Shown here piece by piece: positions 5,672 to 48,144 of a stretch of 64,000 nucleotides of DNA (the stretch's first letter is position 1; the number at the start of each line of letters is the position of its first letter). The notes under the pieces were generated by a model, which did no database searches, had not been told where the DNA came from, and was given only the letters and a program-made list of their open reading frames with translations. Source of the stretch: Rudanella lutea DSM 19387 (GTDB taxonomy: Bacteria; Bacteroidota; Bacteroidia; Cytophagales; Spirosomataceae). The translations under genes and the position numbers were made by a program. The DNA is taken from assembly GCF_000383955.1 (NCBI RefSeq), contig NZ_KB913013.1:2648694-2712693 (forward strand), read 5' to 3'.

Positions 5672-7234
5672 TTACTGCTTTTTCTTTTTCCAGTCGATCT
5701 GGTAGAACAACCGGGCACCCGCACCGGCCGTTGTTACGTTGAGCCGACTCGGCATACTGCTCATTGGGGTTGATGCATAGGAGCCAAGTTGCAACGCCCA
5801 ATCGCCCCAGTTCTTTTCCAGATAGATCGCCACCGAACCGGCGTGCATCATCTGCTGGGCAGGTCGCCAAACCGTAGTGACGGGCTCTACCATACGAGGA
5901 CCGCGCAAATACGTAAACCGGGTTTCTTCGCGGTTGCTGACACTCAGGGCAACACTCGCCGACGGCACCACCGACCACCCCTTAGCCAGCCCGATTCGGT
6001 AACTCAAACTGATAGGTACCTGCCAGGCGGAGCCACTCAGCTGGATATTCATGATATCGTGACGCGGGTCGATACCGGGCGCGAACTTGCTCCGAAAATC
6101 CTGTTTCATCCGGCGACCGTAATCAACATCGGTCAAAAACGAAGCCCCCTGCAAATCGAGCGCCGTCAGGCCCAGACCAACCCGCCAATGGTTGTTGAGC
6201 CGTAGTTCGCCAAACAAGCCAGCACCCCACTGCCGCCAGCCCACGTTGGCCCCAGTGCCCACGCGTACCTTCCAGTCGTTGTCGGAGCGGTCGGCAATCA
6301 CACCTGCCACAGCCGTGGGTGTAGGAGCGGTCAGGCCAAACAACCGGCGGATCCGACGGTTAGCGCGGGCCATACCTTCCTGATAATAAGCCGTATCGCG
6401 TACAAACGGGCGGCTTTCCAGATACTCCAGTTGCACAACCCGGCTCGCTGATGGCCCATTGGCCTCCGCAGTCGGCTGGGCGCCTACGTACGGGGTCTGC
6501 CCATTACCGACACCAGCACCCGCTGGGCCGGATACGTTGTTTTGCCCGGCAACCGCATAGTCTGTACGGTTAGGCCGCTGCGAATCAGACACACCAGTCG
6601 GAGTAGCTGAACGATTGGGCCGATTAGTCCGGGTTTTACCGCCCAACAGGCGATGGGTTGAAGTAGTCGTTGTTTCGGTAGCGTAAGGCGTTGTAGGTGA
6701 GTTGGTGGTATTCTGGGCCGATGCGGGCGTACTGGCCAAATCAGCTTGCTCGGGGGTGGTACGGGCGGTTTCGGCATGGGCATTCCCTGCCGACTCCGTT
6801 GCCGTTCCGGCTACTTGCTCGGTCGGTGGGGTTACCCCATCCGGGGCTGGCTCACCGGGGCGAACGCGATCTACCGGCACCGCTACATACCGCACCACGT
6901 CGCGGGTGAGGTACACGGTATCGGGCGGCAATGGAGCCGCAGCCACCGTACGTTCGGGGCCGGTTTCGCGGAGCACCTTCACGGTCTGAGTAAGGGTTTT
7001 CACCTCTTCGCGCAGTTCCTGATTGGTCCGGTATTGCTGGTACGCCACACCCCCAAACGCCATCACAGCCACCACACTGGCAGCGGCCATTAAGCCGGCT
7101 TTGGTCCCAATGGCATACACGGGTGTCGAGTGCCCAAGCACCTGTTGCATTCGGGTCCAGTCTTTTTCCCGAAACTCAGGCTCGATACCTTCCAGCTTCT
7201 GCCTGATGCGGTCGGAGAAGTTATCGGGTTTCAT
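5672..7234 (-). CDS. Putative anti-sigma factor / membrane protein with C-terminal beta-barrel-like domain
   Basis: 520 residues from the ATG at 7232-7234; a TTG three codons upstream is less likely. Layout: about 45 cytoplasmic residues (FSDRIRQKLEGIEPEFREKDWTRM), one membrane helix (about 45-65, AGLMAAASVVAVMAFGGVAY), a short coiled coil (QELREEVKTLTQTVKVL), a long Pro/Thr/Gly-rich linker (about 105-265) and a C-terminal region of alternating beta strands (GTGANVGWRQWGAGLFGEL, WALQLGSYAS) resembling outer-membrane barrel proteins. The first codons overlap the end of the ECF sigma gene by 14 nt, implying translational coupling and a sigma/anti-sigma relationship. No zinc-finger anti-sigma motif is seen. 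Function is inferred from context. Confidence 0.6.
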   Translation of the reverse strand: MKPDNFSDRIRQKLEGIEPEFREKDWTRMQQVLGHSTPVYAIGTKAGLMAAASVVAVMAFGGVAYQQYRTNQELREEVKTLTQTVKVLRETGPERTVAAAPLPPDTVYLTRDVVRYVAVPVDRVRPGEPAPDGVTPPTEQVAGTATESAGNAHAETARTTPEQADLASTPASAQNTTNSPTTPYATETTTTSTHRLLGGKTRTNRPNRSATPTGVSDSQRPNRTDYAVAGQNNVSGPAGAGVGNGQTPYVGAQPTAEANGPSASRVVQLEYLESRPFVRDTAYYQEGMARANRRIRRLFGLTAPTPTAVAGVIADRSDNDWKVRVGTGANVGWRQWGAGLFGELRLNNHWRVGLGLTALDLQGASFLTDVDYGRRMKQDFRSKFAPGIDPRHDIMNIQLSGSAWQVPISLSYRIGLAKGWSVVPSASVALSVSNREETRFTYLRGPRMVEPVTTVWRPAQQMMHAGSVAIYLEKNWGDWALQLGSYASTPMSSMPSRLNVTTAGAGARLFYQIDWKKKKQ

Positions 7235-7817
7235 AGTAGCCAAGATTAGATGAAGTTATTTGTGGATAGTGCTGTTTAATGAGTTGTTGGAGCCGTTGAC
7301 GCCCCCGCAGGAAGTGCGACCGAATGGTAGCCTCGTTGGCGTCGAGCATTTCGGCGATTTCGCGGAGGCTGTAGCCATCTACCACATGCAGGTTGAATAC
7401 GGTACGCCAGGCAGAGGGTAGCTGTTGAACAATGGCCAGAATTTCGTCAGCCGTAATCCGATCCACGATTTGATCATCGAAAGGAGCTTCGGGTACGTCT
7501 TCCAGCGCCAGATTGGCCTGATGTTTGTGATACCGTCTGTAATTGCTAATGGCCGTATTGACCATGATGGTCCGTAACCAGGCCTTAAAGGGCAGGCTCG
7601 TGTCGTACTGGTGTAGATGCTGAAATACTTTCAGAAACCCTTCGTTGAGCACCTCTTCGGCTTCTTCGGTAGTTGCCGAATACCGGAGGCAAATGCTTTT
7701 GGCGTAGCTGAAAAATTTCTTGAACAACACCCGTTGCGCCTGAGGATCCTGTAAGCGGCAGGCTTCGACGATGCTCAGCAAATCGTCGTCCGAGAAAGAT
7801 CGCTTCCTGAACAGCAA
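7221..7817 (-). CDS. RNA polymerase ECF-type sigma factor
   Basis: 198 residues. Region 2 (about 24-95) contains LRYSATTEEAEEVLNEGFLKVF and PFKAWLRTIMVNTAISNYRR, the core- and -10-binding helices. Region 4 (about 125-185) contains QLPSAWRTVFNLHVVDGYS and LREIAEMLDANEATIRSHFLRGRQRL, a helix-turn-helix for -35 recognition. No ATG lies between the upstream in-frame stop and region 2, so translation probably begins at the TTG at 7815-7817. The gene overlaps the membrane protein at 7234, its probable antagonist. The inducing signal cannot be read from the sequence. Confidence 0.9.
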   Translation of the reverse strand: MLFRKRSFSDDDLLSIVEACRLQDPQAQRVLFKKFFSYAKSICLRYSATTEEAEEVLNEGFLKVFQHLHQYDTSLPFKAWLRTIMVNTAISNYRRYHKHQANLALEDVPEAPFDDQIVDRITADEILAIVQQLPSAWRTVFNLHVVDGYSLREIAEMLDANEATIRSHFLRGRQRLQQLIKQHYPQITSSNLGYYETR

Positions 7818-8112
7818 CGTTTTATTAGTTAGAGAGTTGAACCCACAAGTAATTTTCGATTTACCTGAAAACTACTTAATAAACTAAGGTACGTGGAAGC
7901 TTAGCCGAATGTTGCAGCGTATGGTCTTTTTAATTTGAAATAAACACAATGGAAAAGACATGGCCGAACAGATATGCACAAGGCTTCATTATTAGTACCT
8001 TTACTCTTTCGATTTGATTGACTAACTATAAATGCACCGGACTGCAACGTAGTTTATCGCCCCGGCGTATAAACAATCGGGCAGATGGGAGCATCGCCAA
8101 ATACACGTGGGA

Positions 8113-40508: not shown

Positions 40509-41699
40509 ATGACAAAACTATCTTCTATCAGTCGGCGCGACTGGTTACGCGCCAGTGGCCTACTGGCAGCCGGTCTGACCAGCTTCGGCAGGCCCCCACT
40601 CAGCATGGCCGCCCCCCTCGCGGGTAGTCAGCAGGCCTTCGCGCGGGAGTTCTACCTGACGGCTCCGCCCGAGACCATGCCGAAGCTGAAAGCCCGGCTT
40701 ATGGCCAACGAAAATCCCTACGGCATATCGCCCAAAGCCCGCGAAGCTCTGGTAAAAGCCGTAGACCTGAGCAACCGCTACGCCTGGATGGAGTTTGGCG
40801 AACTGGCCAACCGCATTGGCGAGCAGGAAGGGGTGGCACGCAAGAACATCCTGTTCAGCCCCGGCTCGTCGGATATACTGATGGCTGCGGCTGCATACTA
40901 CACCCAAAACGGCGACCCATCGAAACCCGGAACCATTCTGACCTGCCGCCCTACGTACGACGATCTGCTGGAACGGTCTGAAGCCTTCGGGGCCAACATT
41001 GAAGCCGTTCCGCTTACCCCTCAGTACGAGTACGACCTCGACGCCATGAAGGCCCGCATTGGACCCAATACCAAAATGGTGTACATCGTGAACCCCAACA
41101 ACCCAACCGGCACCATTGTGAATCCGCAGAAACTCGAAGCGTTTGTGCGGGAGGTAGCGCCCAAAGTGCCGGTCTTTCTCGACGAAGCGTACATTGATTT
41201 TCTGGCCCCGGCCGAACGCCCAAACACCGGCAAGCTGGTTGCCGAGGGCCTGAACGTGATTGTAGCCCGGACGTTCTCCAAGATTCACGCGTTTGCGGGA
41301 TTACGACTGGGATATGGCCTTGCCCAACCCGAGGTGCTCAAAGCCCTACGCCAGTACACCAACAATAATTTTGGGGTCAGCATCACCACCCTCATGGCCG
41401 GGATTGCCGCCTACGAAGACCGCGAATGGCAAACCTACTGCCGCACCGAAAACGCGAAAGTGCGCGATTACACCACCAAAGCCCTCAAAGGCATGGGATA
41501 CGAGGTAATTCCATCGTACGCCAACTTCCTGTTATTCCCGATCCGTATGAAGCCCAAAACGTTTGAGAACCAGATGTGGGCAAACGGTATTGGCATTCAA
41601 ACCCGCGAATTTGGCGGGCAACCCTGGTGCCGGGTAAGCATTGGCACACAGGCCGAAATGGAGGCTTTTCTGGCAGAGTTTAAGAAAGTAGTTGGTTAA
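40509..41699 (+). CDS. Tat-exported PLP-dependent aminotransferase (HisC-like)
   Basis: 396 residues. A twin-arginine signal (SRRDWLRASGLLAAGLTSFG) means a folded, cofactor-loaded enzyme is exported, which is unusual for this fold. The class I/II motifs are intact: LMANENPYGISPKA, FSPGSSDILMAAA, NPNNPTGTIV, FLDEAYIDF and the PLP-binding lysine in RTFSKIHAFAGLRLG. Closest in shape to histidinol-phosphate aminotransferases, but location and context argue against histidine synthesis. It begins a row of three exported proteins (next start 53 nt after the stop). Confidence 0.85.
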   Translation: MTKLSSISRRDWLRASGLLAAGLTSFGRPPLSMAAPLAGSQQAFAREFYLTAPPETMPKLKARLMANENPYGISPKAREALVKAVDLSNRYAWMEFGELANRIGEQEGVARKNILFSPGSSDILMAAAAYYTQNGDPSKPGTILTCRPTYDDLLERSEAFGANIEAVPLTPQYEYDLDAMKARIGPNTKMVYIVNPNNPTGTIVNPQKLEAFVREVAPKVPVFLDEAYIDFLAPAERPNTGKLVAEGLNVIVARTFSKIHAFAGLRLGYGLAQPEVLKALRQYTNNNFGVSITTLMAGIAAYEDREWQTYCRTENAKVRDYTTKALKGMGYEVIPSYANFLLFPIRMKPKTFENQMWANGIGIQTREFGGQPWCRVSIGTQAEMEAFLAEFKKVVG

Positions 41700-41752
41700 C
41701 CCCGGTCCGACGCGGGCCGTTAGGGCTCGCGTCAGACCCCTACCCCTTTTTT

Positions 41753-43339
41753 ATGACCCGACGCGACTTTATCAATCGGACCAGCGCTGCCTACGCGGGC
41801 CTGTCGGCCTGGGGCCTGCTGCAACCAGCACCCGCTCAGGCGTTCGACCTTCCTCCCCTCGACTCGGCACAGGGGCGAAAAGTGCTTATTTTGGGAGCCG
41901 GGCTGGCGGGCTTATCGGCCGCTTACGAACTCGGCAAACTGGGTTACGACTGTACCGTACTCGAAGCACGCGCACGTTCGGGCGGCCGGGTCTGGACGGT
42001 ACGGGGCGGCACCACCGAAACCGAACAGGGTGGCCCTACCCAAACCAGTCAGTTTGCCAATGGCCTCTATTTCAACGGAGGGGCAGCCCGCATTCCGCAC
42101 AACCACCAGCTCACACTCCAGTACTGCCGGGAGCTGGGGGTGCCGCTCGAAGTGTTTGTGGGTGCCAACGAAGCCGCTTACCTGTTCAACGAAAAAGCAC
42201 AGGGCCCGCTCAACAACCGCCGGATGCGGATTCGGGATTACCACAATGACATGCGCGGCTATACTTCCGAGCTGCTGGCCAAAGCCCTTGACCAGTCGGC
42301 GCTGGATGAGAAGCTAACGAAAGAGGACATTGAAAAGCTGATCGACTTCCTAAAGAACGAGGGCGATCTCAACACAGCGCATCTGTACAAAGGCACCAAC
42401 CGGCGCGGCTACAAAATAGATCCCAGCCGCCCCGTGTATGCCGACGGCGGCCCCGGTGCCGGTGCTAACCCCGGAACCCTCACCGACCCTTACGGCCTTA
42501 CCGATCTGCTCCGGTCGGGCTTTATGCAGCCCGTGTTTTACAACGTGGGCGAGTACACCTACGAGCAGCAAACGACGCTGCTGCAACCCGTGGGGGGGAT
42601 GGATGCCATAGCCAAAGCCCTCGAAAAGAAGCTGGCGGGCAAACTGGTGTTCAATGCACCCGTGAAGCAGTTGCGCAAAACCGAAACCGGCGTGCGGGTA
42701 GTGTACGAACGCGACGGCAAACCCACCGAACTAACGGCCGAGTTCTGCGTATGTACCATTCCGTTACCCGTACTGAAAAACATCGACTCCGACCTGTCGG
42801 GGCCGGTGAAGCGAGCCGCCGATTTTGTACCGTACATCAAAACCGGCAAGATCGGGCTCCAGTTTAAGCGCCGGTTCTGGGAAGAAGACGATGGCATTTA
42901 CGGCGGCATCTCGCGCACCGACATGGACATCAACCAGATCTGGTACCCGTCGTTTGGGTTTATGGGGGGCAAAGGCGTGCTGATCGGGTACTACAACTTT
43001 TATAGCCGTGCCGAAGCCGTAGCCAGTTTGTCTGTTGCCGAGCGGCAAAAGATAGCGCTGGAGCAGGGAGCCAAAATCCACCCGCAGTACCCTACCGAGT
43101 TTGAAAACAGTTTTTCGCTGGCCTGGCACCGGATTCCGTACAGCGAAGGAGGCTGGGCCTTGTACGACGATGCATCGCGCCGGAAGTTCTACCCCGCCCT
43201 GCTCGAACCCGACGGCAACATTTACTTTGCCGGCGAACACACCACCTACCTCACGGCCTGGATGGCAGGGGCCTTTACCTCGGCCCGGCGCGCTGTCGAT
43301 GCTATTCACAGCCGGGTGGGCCAATATACCCAAAAGTAA
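41753..43339 (+). CDS. Exported flavin amine oxidase (monoamine / L-amino-acid oxidase family)
   Basis: 528 residues. A twin-arginine-type signal (TRRDFINRTSAAYAGLSAW) is followed by the FAD motif VLILGAGLAGLSAAYELGKLG (about 44-64) and ARSGGRVWTV (the RxGGR motif), GGAARIPHNHQLTLQYCRELG, and the C-terminal FAD-binding NIYFAGEHTTYLTAWMAGAF. Flavin-dependent oxidation of primary amines or L-amino acids, probably periplasmic, producing H2O2. Between an exported aminotransferase and a Hint-domain protein at 50-nt spacings, so probably cotranscribed. Confidence 0.9.
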   Translation: MTRRDFINRTSAAYAGLSAWGLLQPAPAQAFDLPPLDSAQGRKVLILGAGLAGLSAAYELGKLGYDCTVLEARARSGGRVWTVRGGTTETEQGGPTQTSQFANGLYFNGGAARIPHNHQLTLQYCRELGVPLEVFVGANEAAYLFNEKAQGPLNNRRMRIRDYHNDMRGYTSELLAKALDQSALDEKLTKEDIEKLIDFLKNEGDLNTAHLYKGTNRRGYKIDPSRPVYADGGPGAGANPGTLTDPYGLTDLLRSGFMQPVFYNVGEYTYEQQTTLLQPVGGMDAIAKALEKKLAGKLVFNAPVKQLRKTETGVRVVYERDGKPTELTAEFCVCTIPLPVLKNIDSDLSGPVKRAADFVPYIKTGKIGLQFKRRFWEEDDGIYGGISRTDMDINQIWYPSFGFMGGKGVLIGYYNFYSRAEAVASLSVAERQKIALEQGAKIHPQYPTEFENSFSLAWHRIPYSEGGWALYDDASRRKFYPALLEPDGNIYFAGEHTTYLTAWMAGAFTSARRAVDAIHSRVGQYTQK

Positions 43340-43390
43340 GGCTACGCTTCGGCGGCCTCCCATATTTTACGTCCAATCATGCAAACCTGA

Positions 43391-44401
43391 ATGTCTATGA
43401 ATCGTCATTTTCTCTCCTTTTTGTTTGTGCTGGCTTCGGCCATAGCCACCAACTTTTTTGCGCAGCGCGTGTGGGCGCAGGCCCCGGCTCCGGGCGTTAT
43501 GACGGCAACCGACGTTGCCACCATCAAATCGATCAAGATTGGCAACCTCGACAAAGACACGTATTTCAAATCGGGCAACTTTATTCTGGATCGGTACGAA
43601 GAACGCCCGCCCTATGTGTTCAATTACAGCGACGGTATCAGTCGGAAAATATACCTCTACAAGGTGTATGCCGCTGCCGACACCAGGGAGCTGGGTTTGC
43701 TGGCCGTTTACCAGAACGGCAAAACAGGCGACCTGAAACCCTTTGTGATTCCGGGTGCCAATGCCGACCGTAAAGCCTGGGATCTGTACATCGACGACCT
43801 GAAGTACGTAGGCGAAAAAGAACCCGGCCTGATGTCGGCGCTGGGGTTTGTGCTCTCTCGTGAAATGGCCACACTACTGGCCGGTGGAGCCGGTGCCAAA
43901 ACCGACGACGGTAAAAAGAAAGAGGAGTATAACTTCTGCTTTGCGCCCGAAGCGCCCGTAACACTCCCCAACGGCACGACCAAAGCCATTGCCGAGCTGA
44001 ACGTGGGGGATGTGATTTTGGGTTACGACGCTCCCACGCATACCCTTGTCCCTACCCGCATTACGGGCGTGCAGGCCCATGCCCCCGTAGCACCGGCCAC
44101 GCAAATTGGCCTGAGCGGGGTATGGCTTACCCCGGCCGAAGGGCTCACAGCCGCCCGCACCCTTCCTGAGCCAATGCTTTTTGAAGCCACGCCCAACCAC
44201 CCGGTCCTGACAGCTACGGGTCGTAAACCCCTGGCCGAGGTACATACCGGCGAGACCCTCTACCGCCACGAATTAGGTGCGCTGGTTCCCTACCGCGTCG
44301 TACGTACGAGCAAAATCACCCGGTTTGCCGATACTGTATATACGCTTTCTACCGATCGGGGTGCTTTTCTGATCGACGATACGCTGGTGCTCGATAAATA
44401 G
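43391..44401 (+). CDS. Secreted Hint-domain protein (hedgehog/intein-like)
   Basis: 336 residues; a second ATG at 43397 is possible. Signal peptide (FLSFLFVLASAIATNFFAQ). The N-terminal domain (about 31-180) matches no family I recognise. A Hint domain begins at Cys183 with CFAPEAPVTLPNGTTKAIAE and LNVGDVILGYD, has the block-B motif TPNHPVLT with its histidine and ends with VYTLSTDRGAFLIDDTLVL. The usual intein end (His-Asn then a nucleophile) is missing; the protein ends LDK. It could cleave at Cys183 like hedgehog or bacterial intein-like proteins, but not splice. Follows the amine oxidase with a 51-nt gap. Confidence 0.78.
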   Translation: MSMNRHFLSFLFVLASAIATNFFAQRVWAQAPAPGVMTATDVATIKSIKIGNLDKDTYFKSGNFILDRYEERPPYVFNYSDGISRKIYLYKVYAAADTRELGLLAVYQNGKTGDLKPFVIPGANADRKAWDLYIDDLKYVGEKEPGLMSALGFVLSREMATLLAGGAGAKTDDGKKKEEYNFCFAPEAPVTLPNGTTKAIAELNVGDVILGYDAPTHTLVPTRITGVQAHAPVAPATQIGLSGVWLTPAEGLTAARTLPEPMLFEATPNHPVLTATGRKPLAEVHTGETLYRHELGALVPYRVVRTSKITRFADTVYTLSTDRGAFLIDDTLVLDK

Positions 44402-44433: not shown

Positions 44434-44470
44434 AGGCCCCGTGTACTACCTTGTACATTGGGGCCTTTTT
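44434..44470 (+). terminator. Terminator after the Hint-domain gene
   Basis: AGGCCCCGTGTAC pairs with GTACATTGGGGCCT around a 6-nt loop and is followed by TTTT. It ends the aminotransferase-oxidase-Hint row. Confidence 0.85.
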
Positions 44471-44534
44471 AGTACCCTGCTTATTTGCACTGTCTTCACT
44501 ATCCCTCTACAGCACAGCCCTTTGCCCGAAACCC

Positions 44535-45506
44535 ATGAAGTCACTGATTCAGAGCCTGCGCGAGTATCTCCGTGCCGATTTTCACCCCCGTCTGTATCTG
44601 GCTACGGCCATGTGGCTTGGGCTTCTGATTATACTCAATTACACACTCGACTTCGAAGATGTGTACATCGACTCATTGCGGGGTAGCTGGAAACGACCGG
44701 TTCTGTATATACTTCTGTACACAACGGTATATTACGTGGCTATGGGACTCTGGACGTACTACCACCACCGGCCCGACCTCTGGCGCAATCGCCGATTTTG
44801 GCTCCATACGAGCGTTGGTTGGGTAACGTACGGGTTTTATGCGGGATTTTACGGGTACAACCGCTGGAGCGAGCAACTGCTCGATGGACAAATTTACCTG
44901 TTCGCTTATTACTGCCTCAGCAACCTGCATTCACTGGTGACGCTGGTGTTGCCTCTGTACCTGTACTACCGATTCTTTGATAATGGGGCCGAACCTTTTT
45001 ACGGCCTGAAACCCAAGCGCGACGGGTTGGCGGTGTACGCCCTGTTGCTGTTAGTTATGGTACCTTTGATTGCCTTTGCGTCGTTTCAGCCCCATTTTCT
45101 CGACTTTTACCCAACCTACAAAGACACCACGGCCAATGAGTTTTTGGGGGTGCCAGAATGGGTCACGGCCCTGGTTTACGAACTTTGCTACGGCTGGGAC
45201 TTTGTACCGACGGAGCTGATGTTTCGCGGATTTATGGTCATTGGGCTAAGCCGAATTACAGCCACTGACAAGAACCAGTCGGGTGTGATTTTGCCGATGG
45301 TTGTGGCCTATGCCAGCATTCACTTTGGCAAGCCTCTGGGCGAAACCCTCTCGTCGATACTAGGCGGTTATCTATTGGGTGTACTGGCCCTTTCCACACA
45401 GAGCATTTGGGGTGGTCTGCTGATTCATCTGAGCATAGCCTGGCTCATGGATGGGGCCGCTTTTGTACAACAGTGGGTGCAACAACCGGCCGCAGTAACT
45501 CCTTAG
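44535..45506 (+). CDS. CPBP family intramembrane metalloprotease
   Basis: 323 residues from the ATG at 44535; the longer frame crosses the terminator. Six to eight hydrophobic helices. The CPBP (Abi) motifs are recognisable: FVPTELMFRGFMVIG (the E-x-x-x-R motif, with the first Glu of EE replaced by Thr), AYASIHFGKP (histidine) and GGLLIHLSIAWLMD. Site-2-type glutamyl/metallo-proteases of this family process prenylated or membrane substrates, and some are bacteriocin immunity proteins. Its stop codon overlaps the stop of the convergent response regulator. Confidence 0.8.
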   Translation: MKSLIQSLREYLRADFHPRLYLATAMWLGLLIILNYTLDFEDVYIDSLRGSWKRPVLYILLYTTVYYVAMGLWTYYHHRPDLWRNRRFWLHTSVGWVTYGFYAGFYGYNRWSEQLLDGQIYLFAYYCLSNLHSLVTLVLPLYLYYRFFDNGAEPFYGLKPKRDGLAVYALLLLVMVPLIAFASFQPHFLDFYPTYKDTTANEFLGVPEWVTALVYELCYGWDFVPTELMFRGFMVIGLSRITATDKNQSGVILPMVVAYASIHFGKPLGETLSSILGGYLLGVLALSTQSIWGGLLIHLSIAWLMDGAAFVQQWVQQPAAVTP

Positions 45507-45901: not shown

Positions 45902-46489
45902 TCAGGTAAAACGTCTATCAAACAATAAGGTTTGGGTGGCTTTTAAACTATACTACAATGCGCCATATGGGTTAAGACGACTTTATAGCGAAAGGTGACA
46001 AGCTTACTACAAATTCAGCACATTTCAACTATAGTTACAAGCCTTTTTGGGTACAAAAGTTATTTAACAGACCGGTACCTCTATCCTACTTTAGAACGTA
46101 GGCACTGTATTTTACAGGGCTAAATATCGTATTGATTAGGCTCCATATTTATTAAAATCTTAAATAATTTACACGACAAAAAACACAAACAATTGACTTT
46201 CAAAGTATTATAAAATTACCATCTGGACCACCAGCCAGCATCAGGCACAAAACAACCCCTCCTTCGCTATAGAGATTGTTTATATCGGGCATGTAGTTAG
46301 CAACAACTATCCAGATTGACGTTACATAGAATCTAAATCGTGTTTTAATTGCCAACCAAACCCGGCGCGTTTTCCTAATCATTTCATACCGCTGGCTTTC
46401 CGGATACCGTTTACCCAGTACACCCGATACCATTAGCCGTACTCGACCAAAAATCCGTAGTATTGCGCCATTACCGACTGCCAACAGCC
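45902..46489. other. AT-rich non-coding gap preceding the ATPase cassette
   Basis: About 590 nt between divergent genes, markedly AT-richer than the surroundings. Open frames in it look random and match nothing recognisable. It presumably holds both promoters and may be a boundary of the inserted cassette; no tRNA, terminal repeats or attachment site could be made out. Confidence 0.5.
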
Positions 46490-47575
46490 ATGCTTAAGCG
46501 TGTTTCGATTCAGAATTTTAAGAGCCTTAAGGACGTCACCCTCGATCTTCAGAAGGTGAACCTGCTCATTGGCCCAAACAACTCCGGTAAAACGAATTTT
46601 TTGAAGGCGCTGGAGTTGATACGAGAAGGTGAGAATCAACCAAATTACAATCCGAACGAAATAGCATTTGGGAAACGCCTTTCAAAAGAAATCAGCGTTA
46701 ACCTACTGTGGCCGTCCGACAGAGAGGAATTTGACTGGCGGATATTCAAACTCTATTATGATTTGAATACACTAACAAGTGCTACCGGATATTTCAAAAA
46801 TGATTTACCAGATGAAATAATCACGGGACGAGTCTCAATACCTGATTTTCAACGCTATCAATATAGTTCTCTAAAAATTTATAAACTCGACCCGAACAAG
46901 TTAGCCCAACCAGGCCCTGTTGGGATTGGAGAGGAGATTGTCAGCGCTGATGGTTCGAACCTTGTCGGATTTTTGGATTTGATGCTCGGGAAGTATAGAA
47001 AATCTGTCTTCAATCGTACTGAAAATGATTTACACACCTGTATTCCTGAGTTTGACGAGATTAACCTCGACGATGCTCCGGCTACTGAAGAACTCAAAAA
47101 ACAGTATGGCGATAAGTCCTTCAAACGCCTAGGCTTGAGCAATAGCAAACAGGGTATCACGTATTGGGCTGACGAACTCTCCGAGGGTACGCTTTACTTC
47201 CTCGCTCTGCTCTGTATCATCAACCAGCCTAACCCGCCCAAGCTGCTGTTGTTGGAGGAACCCGAGAAGGGCATTCACCCACGCCGGTTATTTGAGGTAA
47301 TGCAGTTTATCCTGACGCTGGTTGAAGAGAAAGATGTGCAGGTCATTATGACCACGCACAGTCCCGCAATCGTTGATATGTTTAAAGACATGCCGGAATC
47401 GGTCTTTATCTTCGATAAGGATGAAGAAGGCGCAACGCACGTCAAAAATTTATTACATGATGTAATCGAACCGGAAACAGAGAGAAGTAAAGAGTTAGGC
47501 ATTGAACCACCGCACTACACCGACTCTCTTGGCGATGCCTGGACGGTTGGCTTTCTAGGGGGAGTACCAAAATGA
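46490..47575 (+). CDS. AAA15/OLD-like ATPase of a two-gene cassette
   Basis: 361 residues from the ATG at 46490 (MLKRVSIQNFKSLKDVTLDL). ABC/SMC-type ATPase head: Walker A GPNNSGKT (28-35), signature-like ADELSEGTLYFLAL, Walker B LLLLEEPEKGIHP and switch histidine VIMTTHSPAIVD. The short insertion between the motifs is not a coiled coil of SMC length. Such ATPases are the sensor or motor half of OLD-, PARIS- and Septu-type defence modules. The stop overlaps the start of the next gene by 4 nt (ATGA). Base composition is clearly AT-richer than the neighbours, suggesting transfer. Function in this organism is inferred. Confidence 0.85.
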   Translation: MLKRVSIQNFKSLKDVTLDLQKVNLLIGPNNSGKTNFLKALELIREGENQPNYNPNEIAFGKRLSKEISVNLLWPSDREEFDWRIFKLYYDLNTLTSATGYFKNDLPDEIITGRVSIPDFQRYQYSSLKIYKLDPNKLAQPGPVGIGEEIVSADGSNLVGFLDLMLGKYRKSVFNRTENDLHTCIPEFDEINLDDAPATEELKKQYGDKSFKRLGLSNSKQGITYWADELSEGTLYFLALLCIINQPNPPKLLLLEEPEKGIHPRRLFEVMQFILTLVEEKDVQVIMTTHSPAIVDMFKDMPESVFIFDKDEEGATHVKNLLHDVIEPETERSKELGIEPPHYTDSLGDAWTVGFLGGVPK

Positions 47576-48144
47576 GCCAGATTGTTACCTACGCTTTTTT
47601 CGGAGAAGACGACGCTCAACGCAACTTTCTAGAAAAATACCTGCACCAGGAATTCCCCGACACGTTCATTGAGGACGAAAATGAGCGTTGGCGTTTCAAA
47701 GCAACGAACGATAAGCAGGTAGATAAACTTCTACCAGAAGCATTACGGCAAATCAGGTTGCTCGAGCTGGATGTTCTGTTTATTAGTCGGGACATTGACA
47801 CCGATCAAACGCCCAAAATTTTAGAAAAACAGGCAGACTTTGCCAAAACTTGTCAGGGACACCCTGCTATTGTAATGCTACCCGTTCAGTGTATTGAGTA
47901 CTGGCTCTGGTATATCAAGCGACACCACGAGGAACCGGGGAAAAATACACCTTTGGAATCGCAAACTCGAGCAACTGCCAAACGGGCCGTTTACGACAAC
48001 ACAAAAGTGGTAGCTAAACAAATAGCGTTAGCGAATGACATTTTGCTACATCTGGATGTTAACTGGCTAACTACCCGCTCTCCTAGTTTCAACCATTTTC
48101 ATAAACAAGTACAAGCGTTTCTGAGTGAGTACGCAAAAACGTGA
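47572..48144 (+). CDS. Putative TOPRIM/DUF4276-like effector partner of the ATPase
   Basis: 190 residues with ATG overlapping the upstream TGA. The layout looks like a TOPRIM-type fold: FFGEDDAQRNFLEKYLHQEFP (acidic Glu in the first strand turn), LDVLFISRDIDTDQ (D-x-D) and MLPVQCIEYWLWYIKRHH (an Ile-Glu-x-Trp motif typical of DUF4276/RloB-like proteins). No recognised nuclease name can be assigned with certainty. Tight coupling to the ATPase suggests that it is the effector of the pair. Same AT-rich composition as the ATPase. It ends 35 nt before the cystathionine beta-synthase gene. Confidence 0.5.
   Translation: MSQIVTYAFFGEDDAQRNFLEKYLHQEFPDTFIEDENERWRFKATNDKQVDKLLPEALRQIRLLELDVLFISRDIDTDQTPKILEKQADFAKTCQGHPAIVMLPVQCIEYWLWYIKRHHEEPGKNTPLESQTRATAKRAVYDNTKVVAKQIALANDILLHLDVNWLTTRSPSFNHFHKQVQAFLSEYAKT

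Follow-up and report, generated by a model that had tools for sequence, protein, structure and literature searches.

What do a transaminase, a flavoenzyme, and a secreted protein ending in a Hint domain do together outside the cytoplasm? The question is raised by positions 40509–44401 of a stretch of 64,000 nucleotides of Rudanella lutea DSM 19387 (contig NZ_KB913013.1, positions 2,648,694 to 2,712,693), which is called the window in the following. The three genes—those of the aminotransferase (AT), of the flavoenzyme, an amino-acid-oxidase-like protein (AO), and of the Hint protein, which is secreted and carries a C-terminal Hint domain—all lie on the + strand, are separated by gaps of 53 and 51 nt, and are followed by the hairpin and T run of an intrinsic terminator (44434–44466, + strand). 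The hairpin has a folding energy of −22.3 kcal/mol (z −4.94), and an energy as low is reached in 0/200 shuffles; a simple terminator scan left it out, probably because of a one-base bulge. Read from the sequence, all three proteins bear export signals, namely two twin-arginine N-termini and one Sec-type leader. The layout given in the preliminary description—three exported proteins whose genes have gaps of about 50 nt and one terminator—is hence borne out. There is strong evidence that these genes form a conserved exported three-gene module.

Gene order and co-inheritance

All loci used for comparison were located via the Hint gene; Hint counts are therefore given by construction, and AT and AO counts are not. 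Scanning genomes with the Hint protein as query yielded 31 named loci. AT, AO, and Hint genes are consecutive on one strand in this order in all assessable ones (30/30); the remaining locus, L057, starts at the Hint gene. The closest named relative of the window genome is Rudanella paleaurantiibacter, with identities of 98% for AT, 98% for AO, and 91% for the Hint protein; by this relative, the order referred to below is taken as Cytophagales. The gene order asked for in the preliminary description is conserved in these named loci, and the contrary case it had considered, in which the genes of relatives are always unlinked, is contradicted.

As a neighbor control, 32 window genes (24–62 kb) were compared with five sets of loci; the genomes are related and the counts not independent. 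The flanks were fetched over 7–10 kb, a distance within which only about 15 of the other 29 genes compared lie. In the 29 loci L033–L061 of Spirosoma, Fibrella, Fibrivirga, Fibrisoma, and Larkinella, AT and AO are each found 28 times—the single miss being the truncated locus L057—and other genes at most four times. The 11 loci of other genera hold AT in 10 and AO in 10, with any other window gene in one at most; the AO missed by the control in L071 sits in place by profile search. For the 17 loci of other families, the numbers are 11 for AT, 14 for AO, and at most one for any other window gene; L124–L126, loci of the order whose Hint gene has no AT and no AO next to it, stand outside this set. 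Beyond the order, AT and AO are present in 7 of 7 loci each and any other window gene in none. Chance neighborhood was rejected on these numbers: unlike AT and AO, other window genes rarely recur beyond the genus (at most 4/29, 1/11, 1/17, and 0/7). The open reading frame (ORF) caller loses genes that lie under longer antisense ORFs, as for AO in L071 and L157 and for Hint in L131, and profile searches place them.

The order AT–AO–Hint is found in the family of the window genome and, in addition, in G217 and G329; AO–AT–Hint is the arrangement of most fetched loci of family 12 and of the seven blocks outside the taxonomic order. G315 has AO–Hint, and opposite-strand arrangements are seen in G226, G153, G201, and G319. 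Since gene order and strand vary between lineages, the grouping is more than an arrangement inherited unchanged. These rearrangements, together with cases in which the genes are unlinked, argue for function, although the relatedness of the genomes keeps the counts from being independent.

The order sample comprises 390 genomes. Matches to the Hint profile at 1e-8 occur in 88 of them, in 57 over nearly the whole length, and matches to the AO profile at 1e-100 in 51; all 51 AO genomes (51/51) lie within the 57 with a full-length Hint protein. The six others (G074, G085, G094, G031, G050, and G063) belong to one genus, g31, and have AT directly beside Hint with no AO there; G094 shows a partial, distant AO-like match elsewhere. 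AO and Hint are within 2 kb of each other in 45/51 AO genomes, are far apart in G172, G187, G214, and G455, and reside on different short contigs in G165 and G239, where linkage is not assessable. A sample of 150 genomes of the family gives the Hint protein in 53 of 54 AO genomes; in the exception, G054, AO is truncated where its 3.65 kb contig ends. Across 395 genomes of the phylum, Hint matched 13 at 1e-10, and outside the order the genes of AO, AT, and Hint form a single block in each of the full-length Hint genomes (7/7). AO is absent at 1e-30 from 10 Hint-negative genomes of the class, the whole phylum sample not having been searched for AO. In 20 full-length Hint loci of other families of the order, the fetched stretch contains AO in 14 and AT in 11.

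No partner is more constant than the Hint protein, and in the order sample AO never occurs without it. That it survives in one genus in which AO is lacking, and elsewhere with no AT nearby, speaks against a pure maturation factor of AO and for a shared pathway. No match to the Hint protein is found among 72,556 plasmid records. A defense system was considered and discarded: PADLOC returns weak hits for AT (14–15 bits), matches AO to a generic flavoenzyme model (152 bits), and gives no hit for the Hint protein.

The exported transaminase and oxidase

The AT (40509–41699, + strand; 396 aa) has the twin-arginine N-terminus SRRDWL and is a HisC-like, pyridoxal phosphate (PLP)-dependent aminotransferase of class I/II (Pfam PF00155 Aminotran_1_2, 136 bits). 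Lys258, Asn198, Asp225, and Arg375 are invariant in 14 aligned sequences. The best NCBIfam match, NF006580/PRK09105, reaches 252.8 bits and stays under the cut-off of 444, as does the protein for every one of the 25 families listed out of 74 matched. Histidinol-phosphate aminotransferase HisC (TIGR01141, 221.4 bits vs a curated cut-off of 276.55) and the pyoverdine transaminase PtaA (NF051461, 202.2 bits vs a curated cut-off of 500) were both rejected as identities. A tree was built from 68 of 93 AT hits, with pieces shorter than 330 aa and most named loci left out. The window AT falls into a clade (100/100) that also holds non-module ATs of G029, G048, G068, and G079, and the modules of G029 and G048 carry another AT clade. 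For this reason, the module AT has apparently been swapped for another exported AT in the lineage of the window; deep branching among the AT clades is poorly supported (88/86).

The locus L032 (NZ_JAPQNS010000003.1), titled Flavobacterium sp. SUN052, has the module closest to that of Rudanella, and in the AT tree it groups with a genome of the same genus; the label of this record may therefore be wrong.

The AO (41753–43339, + strand; 528 aa) has the twin-arginine N-terminus TRRDFI and resembles flavin adenine dinucleotide (FAD)-dependent L-amino-acid oxidases. It matches PF01593 Amino_oxidase in Pfam (198 bits), and its best solved relative is the L-amino-acid oxidase (LAAO) of Rhodococcus opacus (PDB 2JAE, E 3e-106; next 6e-39), with which it aligns over the full length. 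Arg113 and Tyr414 of AO, invariant in 15 aligned sequences, align to Arg84 and Tyr371 of the R. opacus enzyme, which we take to be its carboxylate-binding residues. Full-length homology and the aligned Arg and Tyr suggest an enzyme of the R. opacus LAAO type with a predicted oxidase activity, and the conservation of both residues points to free L-amino acids as substrate rather than protein or peptide amines. Of the earlier designation as exported amine oxidase, the flavin amine oxidase with an export signal remains; the label is too broad, as the match to 2JAE makes the protein specifically LAAO-like.

The AO of Spirosoma telluris (L035:8340–9912) consists of three ORF pieces and is possibly a pseudogene or an assembly error. 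In L128 (G312), AT and AO are both in pieces, and the Hint gene is a single ORF.

In both enzymes, the twin-arginine motif is followed by a hydrophobic stretch. RR is present in 63 of 65 AO rows, the remaining two having RK; among 90 AT rows, non-module ATs included, RR is present in 87 and RK in two, and one ORF call starts too far upstream. TatC is found in all genomes tested (35/35), the window genome among them; as it also occurs in Hint-negative genomes, it shows the possibility of twin-arginine translocation (Tat) and not an association with the module. By leader and genomic TatC, AT and AO fit Tat substrates and would take this route. A Tat signal on a folded PLP enzyme had been called unusual in the preliminary description; this needs amending, since PvdN and PtaA of pseudomonads are precedents for Tat export of PLP enzymes with their cofactor, according to the available part of PMC6206403. 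No exported LAAO was found among the matches listed in the open-access literature, as far as their accessible text goes.

The Hint protein

The Hint protein (43391–44401, + strand; 336 aa) consists of a Sec-type leader of about residues 1–30 (43391–43480), modeled as a helix over residues 6–30; a domain of about 130 residues (34–166, 43490–43888); a low-confidence linker (165–177); and the Hint domain, which extends from Cys183 to Lys336 and thus to the protein end (183–336, 43937–44398). All of these parts are encoded on the + strand. The Pfam Hint score of the window protein is 25.2 bits vs a cut-off of 29.7, and this cut-off is passed by 8/14 related Hint proteins (4/6 and 4/8). The predicted fold of the C-terminal domain is clearly Hint: a model based on 27 sequences, with a mean predicted local distance difference test (pLDDT) value of 82.4 and a predicted template modeling (pTM) score of 0.47, matches the bacterial intein-like (BIL) domain BIL2 (6y75) in Foldseek with E 9e-9 and gives a VIA Z of 19.9 to 4o1r and to Hedgehog 1at0, with residues 183–336 on 258–401 at a root mean square deviation of 1.8.

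Cys183 (codon 43937–43939, + strand), at the position given by the preliminary description, is the predicted nucleophile of an N–S acyl shift. Together with Phe184, Thr267, His270, Pro271, and Gly277, it is invariant in 75/75 distinct full-length Hint proteins; in alignment A1, identity over the whole protein drops to 26%. Thr267 and His270 are part of the block B motif T267-P-N-H270 (TxxH; 44189–44200, + strand), which is in register with the TxxH of Hedgehog in a multiple alignment. According to the accessible part of PMC9163320, Hedgehog and inteins have Cys and TxxH in common, the variant H329A is inactive, and the fold ends are about 6 Å apart. His230 is kept in 73/75 proteins and lies two residues past position 228, which is aligned with the general base D46/D303 of Hedgehog and is variable (D in 20/75); the register of 228 vs 230 is not fixed by profile or multiple alignment. 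Lys336 (codon 44396–44398, + strand) is kept in 74/75, the 75th protein (L125) ending with its contig. Lys is the final residue in 65/75 and is followed by one further residue in nine.

His-Asn are never the last two residues in the 75 full-length rows. Identity as an intein was rejected on the missing C-terminal His-Asn and C-extein, the protein ending at Lys336, and identity as an A-type BIL on the missing conserved His-Asn of the definition in the available text of PMC7765530. Lacking both His-Asn and a C-extein, the domain can therefore only perform chemistry at its N-terminal junction. In 6/8 short Hint paralogs checked, which neighbor another exported AT, the Cys has been lost, so that the Hint fold can persist without the chemistry.

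These short proteins end a row in L077–L085, which reads SusC–SusD–lipoprotein–exported AT–membrane permease–short secreted Hint protein. In L078, a gene of the peptidylarginine/agmatine deiminase family (6772–7830; PF04371, 381 bits) directly adjoins the short Hint gene. Open frames of about 566–609 aa in L132 (7865–9616), G377, G426, G177, and G391 carry a related Hint domain, which in L132 is C-terminal and joined to a different N-terminal part. A 1383-aa protein of L151 (2375–6526) has a weak Hint match near its end, with a His-Asn motif present.

Modeled alone, the N-terminal domain of the Hint protein reaches a pLDDT of 84.8. It has no Foldseek match in the PDB at E 0.001 or better (best E 0.13), a VIA Z of at most 4.8, and no Pfam family above cut-off, and its aligned relatives share no invariant Cys. 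These searches found nothing, from which newness of the fold does not follow. Within the Hint scans of order and phylum, the domain is seen without a Hint domain only in G252, where the match is at a contig end.

Proposed function and rival explanations

Most likely, the locus encodes an extracytoplasmic, amino-acid-oxidizing module in which a self-cleaving precursor supplies an N-terminal domain that works alongside the enzymes, a proposal that is given about an even chance. AT and AO would be exported by Tat in a folded state, with PLP and FAD, and the Hint protein would be exported by Sec. AO would act in the periplasm on free L-amino acids, yielding keto acids, NH3, and H2O2; AT would exchange amino groups, the two enzymes possibly working as a transdeamination cycle, as judged by their families and active-site residues. 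In the precursor, Cys183 would attack the carbonyl of Phe182, with the N–S acyl shift being aided by Thr267 and His270. A small nucleophile—water or an amine—would then resolve the thioester and release the N-terminal domain, which could work with the oxidase and transaminase. The preliminary description had suggested a peptide- or amine-modifying envelope system, which is possible. What the comparison supports is a conserved exported unit (30/30 loci) and the invariance of the catalytic residues of Hint (75/75).

Several observations weigh against the self-cleaving precursor and its coupling to the enzymes. The Pfam Hint score of the window protein falls short of the cut-off, and short Hint paralogs with a lost Cys persist beside exported ATs, which counts against universal processing. 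AT and AO are broken up in some lineages (both in L128, AO in L035), and the six g31 genomes retain AT beside Hint without AO. The AO and Hint genes are distant from each other or on separate contigs in 6/51 AO genomes, and an AT next to AO or Hint is frequently lacking, with AT present in 11/20 full-length Hint loci of other families.

The boldest alternative to the self-cleaving precursor is a Hedgehog-like conjugation, in which a specific amine or lipid nucleophile resolves the thioester and the N-terminal domain gains a small molecule at its new C-terminus; the task of AO and AT would be to produce, edit, or remove this nucleophile. As in Hedgehog, the Hint domain is C-terminal and confined to chemistry at its N-terminal junction, with TxxH in register; the near-invariant His230 follows the D46-aligned position by two residues, and the partner enzymes act on amino groups. 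However, a sterol or adduct recognition region past the Hint fold and a lipid-binding part are not seen in the Hint protein, the aligned D46 position is variable, and this explanation is considered unlikely. More doubtful still is its widest form, a bacterial counterpart of Hedgehog maturation and phylum-wide conjugation system in which Hint would move the N-terminal domain from Cys183 to a specific amine, with LAAO and transaminase controlling or trimming the adduct. Possible acceptors are free amino compounds, aminolipids, and the conserved Lys336, which should sit beside the active site because the ends of the Hint fold are close together. The persistence of short paralogs despite Cys loss would also suit a Hint protein that does no processing, serves the exported enzymes as scaffold or chaperone, and uses its compact β fold for binding only, but Cys, Thr, and His are kept in all 75 full-length proteins in spite of their divergence, and such a role is judged rather improbable.

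Very little probability is assigned to periplasmic tailoring of a secreted peptide or siderophore, comparable to the action of PvdN and PtaA on pyoverdine, with the Hint protein as peptide carrier or processing factor. In favor of this are a similarity of the AT to the PtaA model and a Tat-type export like the one that the available part of PMC6206403 describes for PtaA. The AT is, however, under the PtaA cut-off, and beyond the genus no further gene around the module is kept in more than 4/29 loci. The least probable explanation is a catabolic locus for imported amino-acid compounds, with uptake by SusC/SusD, exported AT, oxidase, and an incidental Hint protein. Close homologs of one SusC/SusD pair share the AT/AO/Hint locus in many relatives, and in the window genome they lie beside an AT paralog, the second exported AT of this genome, in a SusC–SusD–lipoprotein–AT row (L092; G000:C1:4896000–4914000). 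SusD above 500 bits is found in just 26 of 58 AO-positive genomes tested and also in AO-negative ones; SusC/SusD was for this reason rejected as an obligatory fourth part and left out of the module. An incidental role is also at odds with the finding that AO is accompanied more faithfully by the Hint protein than by any other partner.

Relation to known systems

The known bacterial Hint proteins are mostly BILs in variable proteins, inteins, or domains for toxin release. AT, AO, and the Hint domain all belong to known superfamilies. In the accessible text of the open-access literature searched, no counterpart was found for their combination, for the partnership with the enzymes, for the conserved Lys at the C-terminus, or for the unassigned N-terminal domain. 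No paper was found there that joins a Hint domain with an amine oxidase, and the available portions of work on LAAO/aminotransferase/Hint operons yielded none on such a locus.

With the Hog domain of Hedgehog (1AT0), the Hint protein has in common the fold (Z 19.9), a Cys at position 1, the TxxH motif in register, and a C-terminal Hint in a secreted protein. It differs in the variable D46 position, in another N-terminal domain that has no significant match, in being part of a bacterial gene module, and in the absence of a sterol or adduct recognition region. By this last feature, identity as a Hog domain was rejected: the protein stops where the Hedgehog Hint fragment stops, with residue 336 aligned with Hedgehog 401. 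B-type BILs likewise have N-terminal cleavage motifs without the C-terminal His-Asn, but reside in hypervariable regions of non-conserved proteins, according to the text available from PMC7765530; here, the Hint protein and its partners are conserved, and Hint ends the protein. The nearest described bacterial group, going by the accessible part of PMC2362128 (Burglin 2008), comprises secreted proteins with a C-terminal Hint-like domain from Stigmatella, Myxococcus, Reinekea, Photorhabdus, Serratia, and Yersinia. Shared features are a signal peptide in some members and a divergent C-terminal Hint. The group conserves two upstream Cys, and that same part of the source mentions no enzyme partners, whereas the N-terminal domain of the Hint protein has no invariant Cys and its gene is linked to AT and AO.

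The polymorphic-toxin PT-HINT domain is also carried by secreted proteins, but is placed immediately ahead of a toxin at the C-terminus, as stated in the available part of PMC3482391; here, Hint is the protein end. A PT-HINT toxin was rejected, as nothing follows Lys336 in 65/75 proteins and one residue in nine, with one protein cut by its contig end. On the side of the enzymes, AO differs from the R. opacus LAAO (2JAE) by its twin-arginine leader and its linkage to AT and Hint. The AT shares with PtaA and PvdN the apparent Tat export of a PLP enzyme (accessible part of PMC6206403) and matches the PtaA model with 202 bits, but it stays below the cut-off of 500, has other neighbors, and belongs to another phylum.

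An autoprocessing Hint domain is here tied by co-inheritance to a dedicated exported amino-acid oxidase and transaminase, an association that reaches across several families of one phylum and into at least two of its classes. As a stable, enzyme-linked precursor, the Hint protein would offer a simple in vitro system for asking whether bacteria release or conjugate protein by Hint chemistry, and it could show whether this chemistry controls periplasmic H2O2-producing enzymes.

Neighboring genes

Just 3′ of the terminator, at window positions 44451–45506, lies a gene of a CPBP/Rce1-type membrane protease, which is found in one of the two same-genus loci and in no other locus set. Farther downstream, at 46463–48144, a gene resembling AAA ATPases overlaps a small second gene, an arrangement that, read from the sequence, recalls two-gene ATPase/nuclease pairs.

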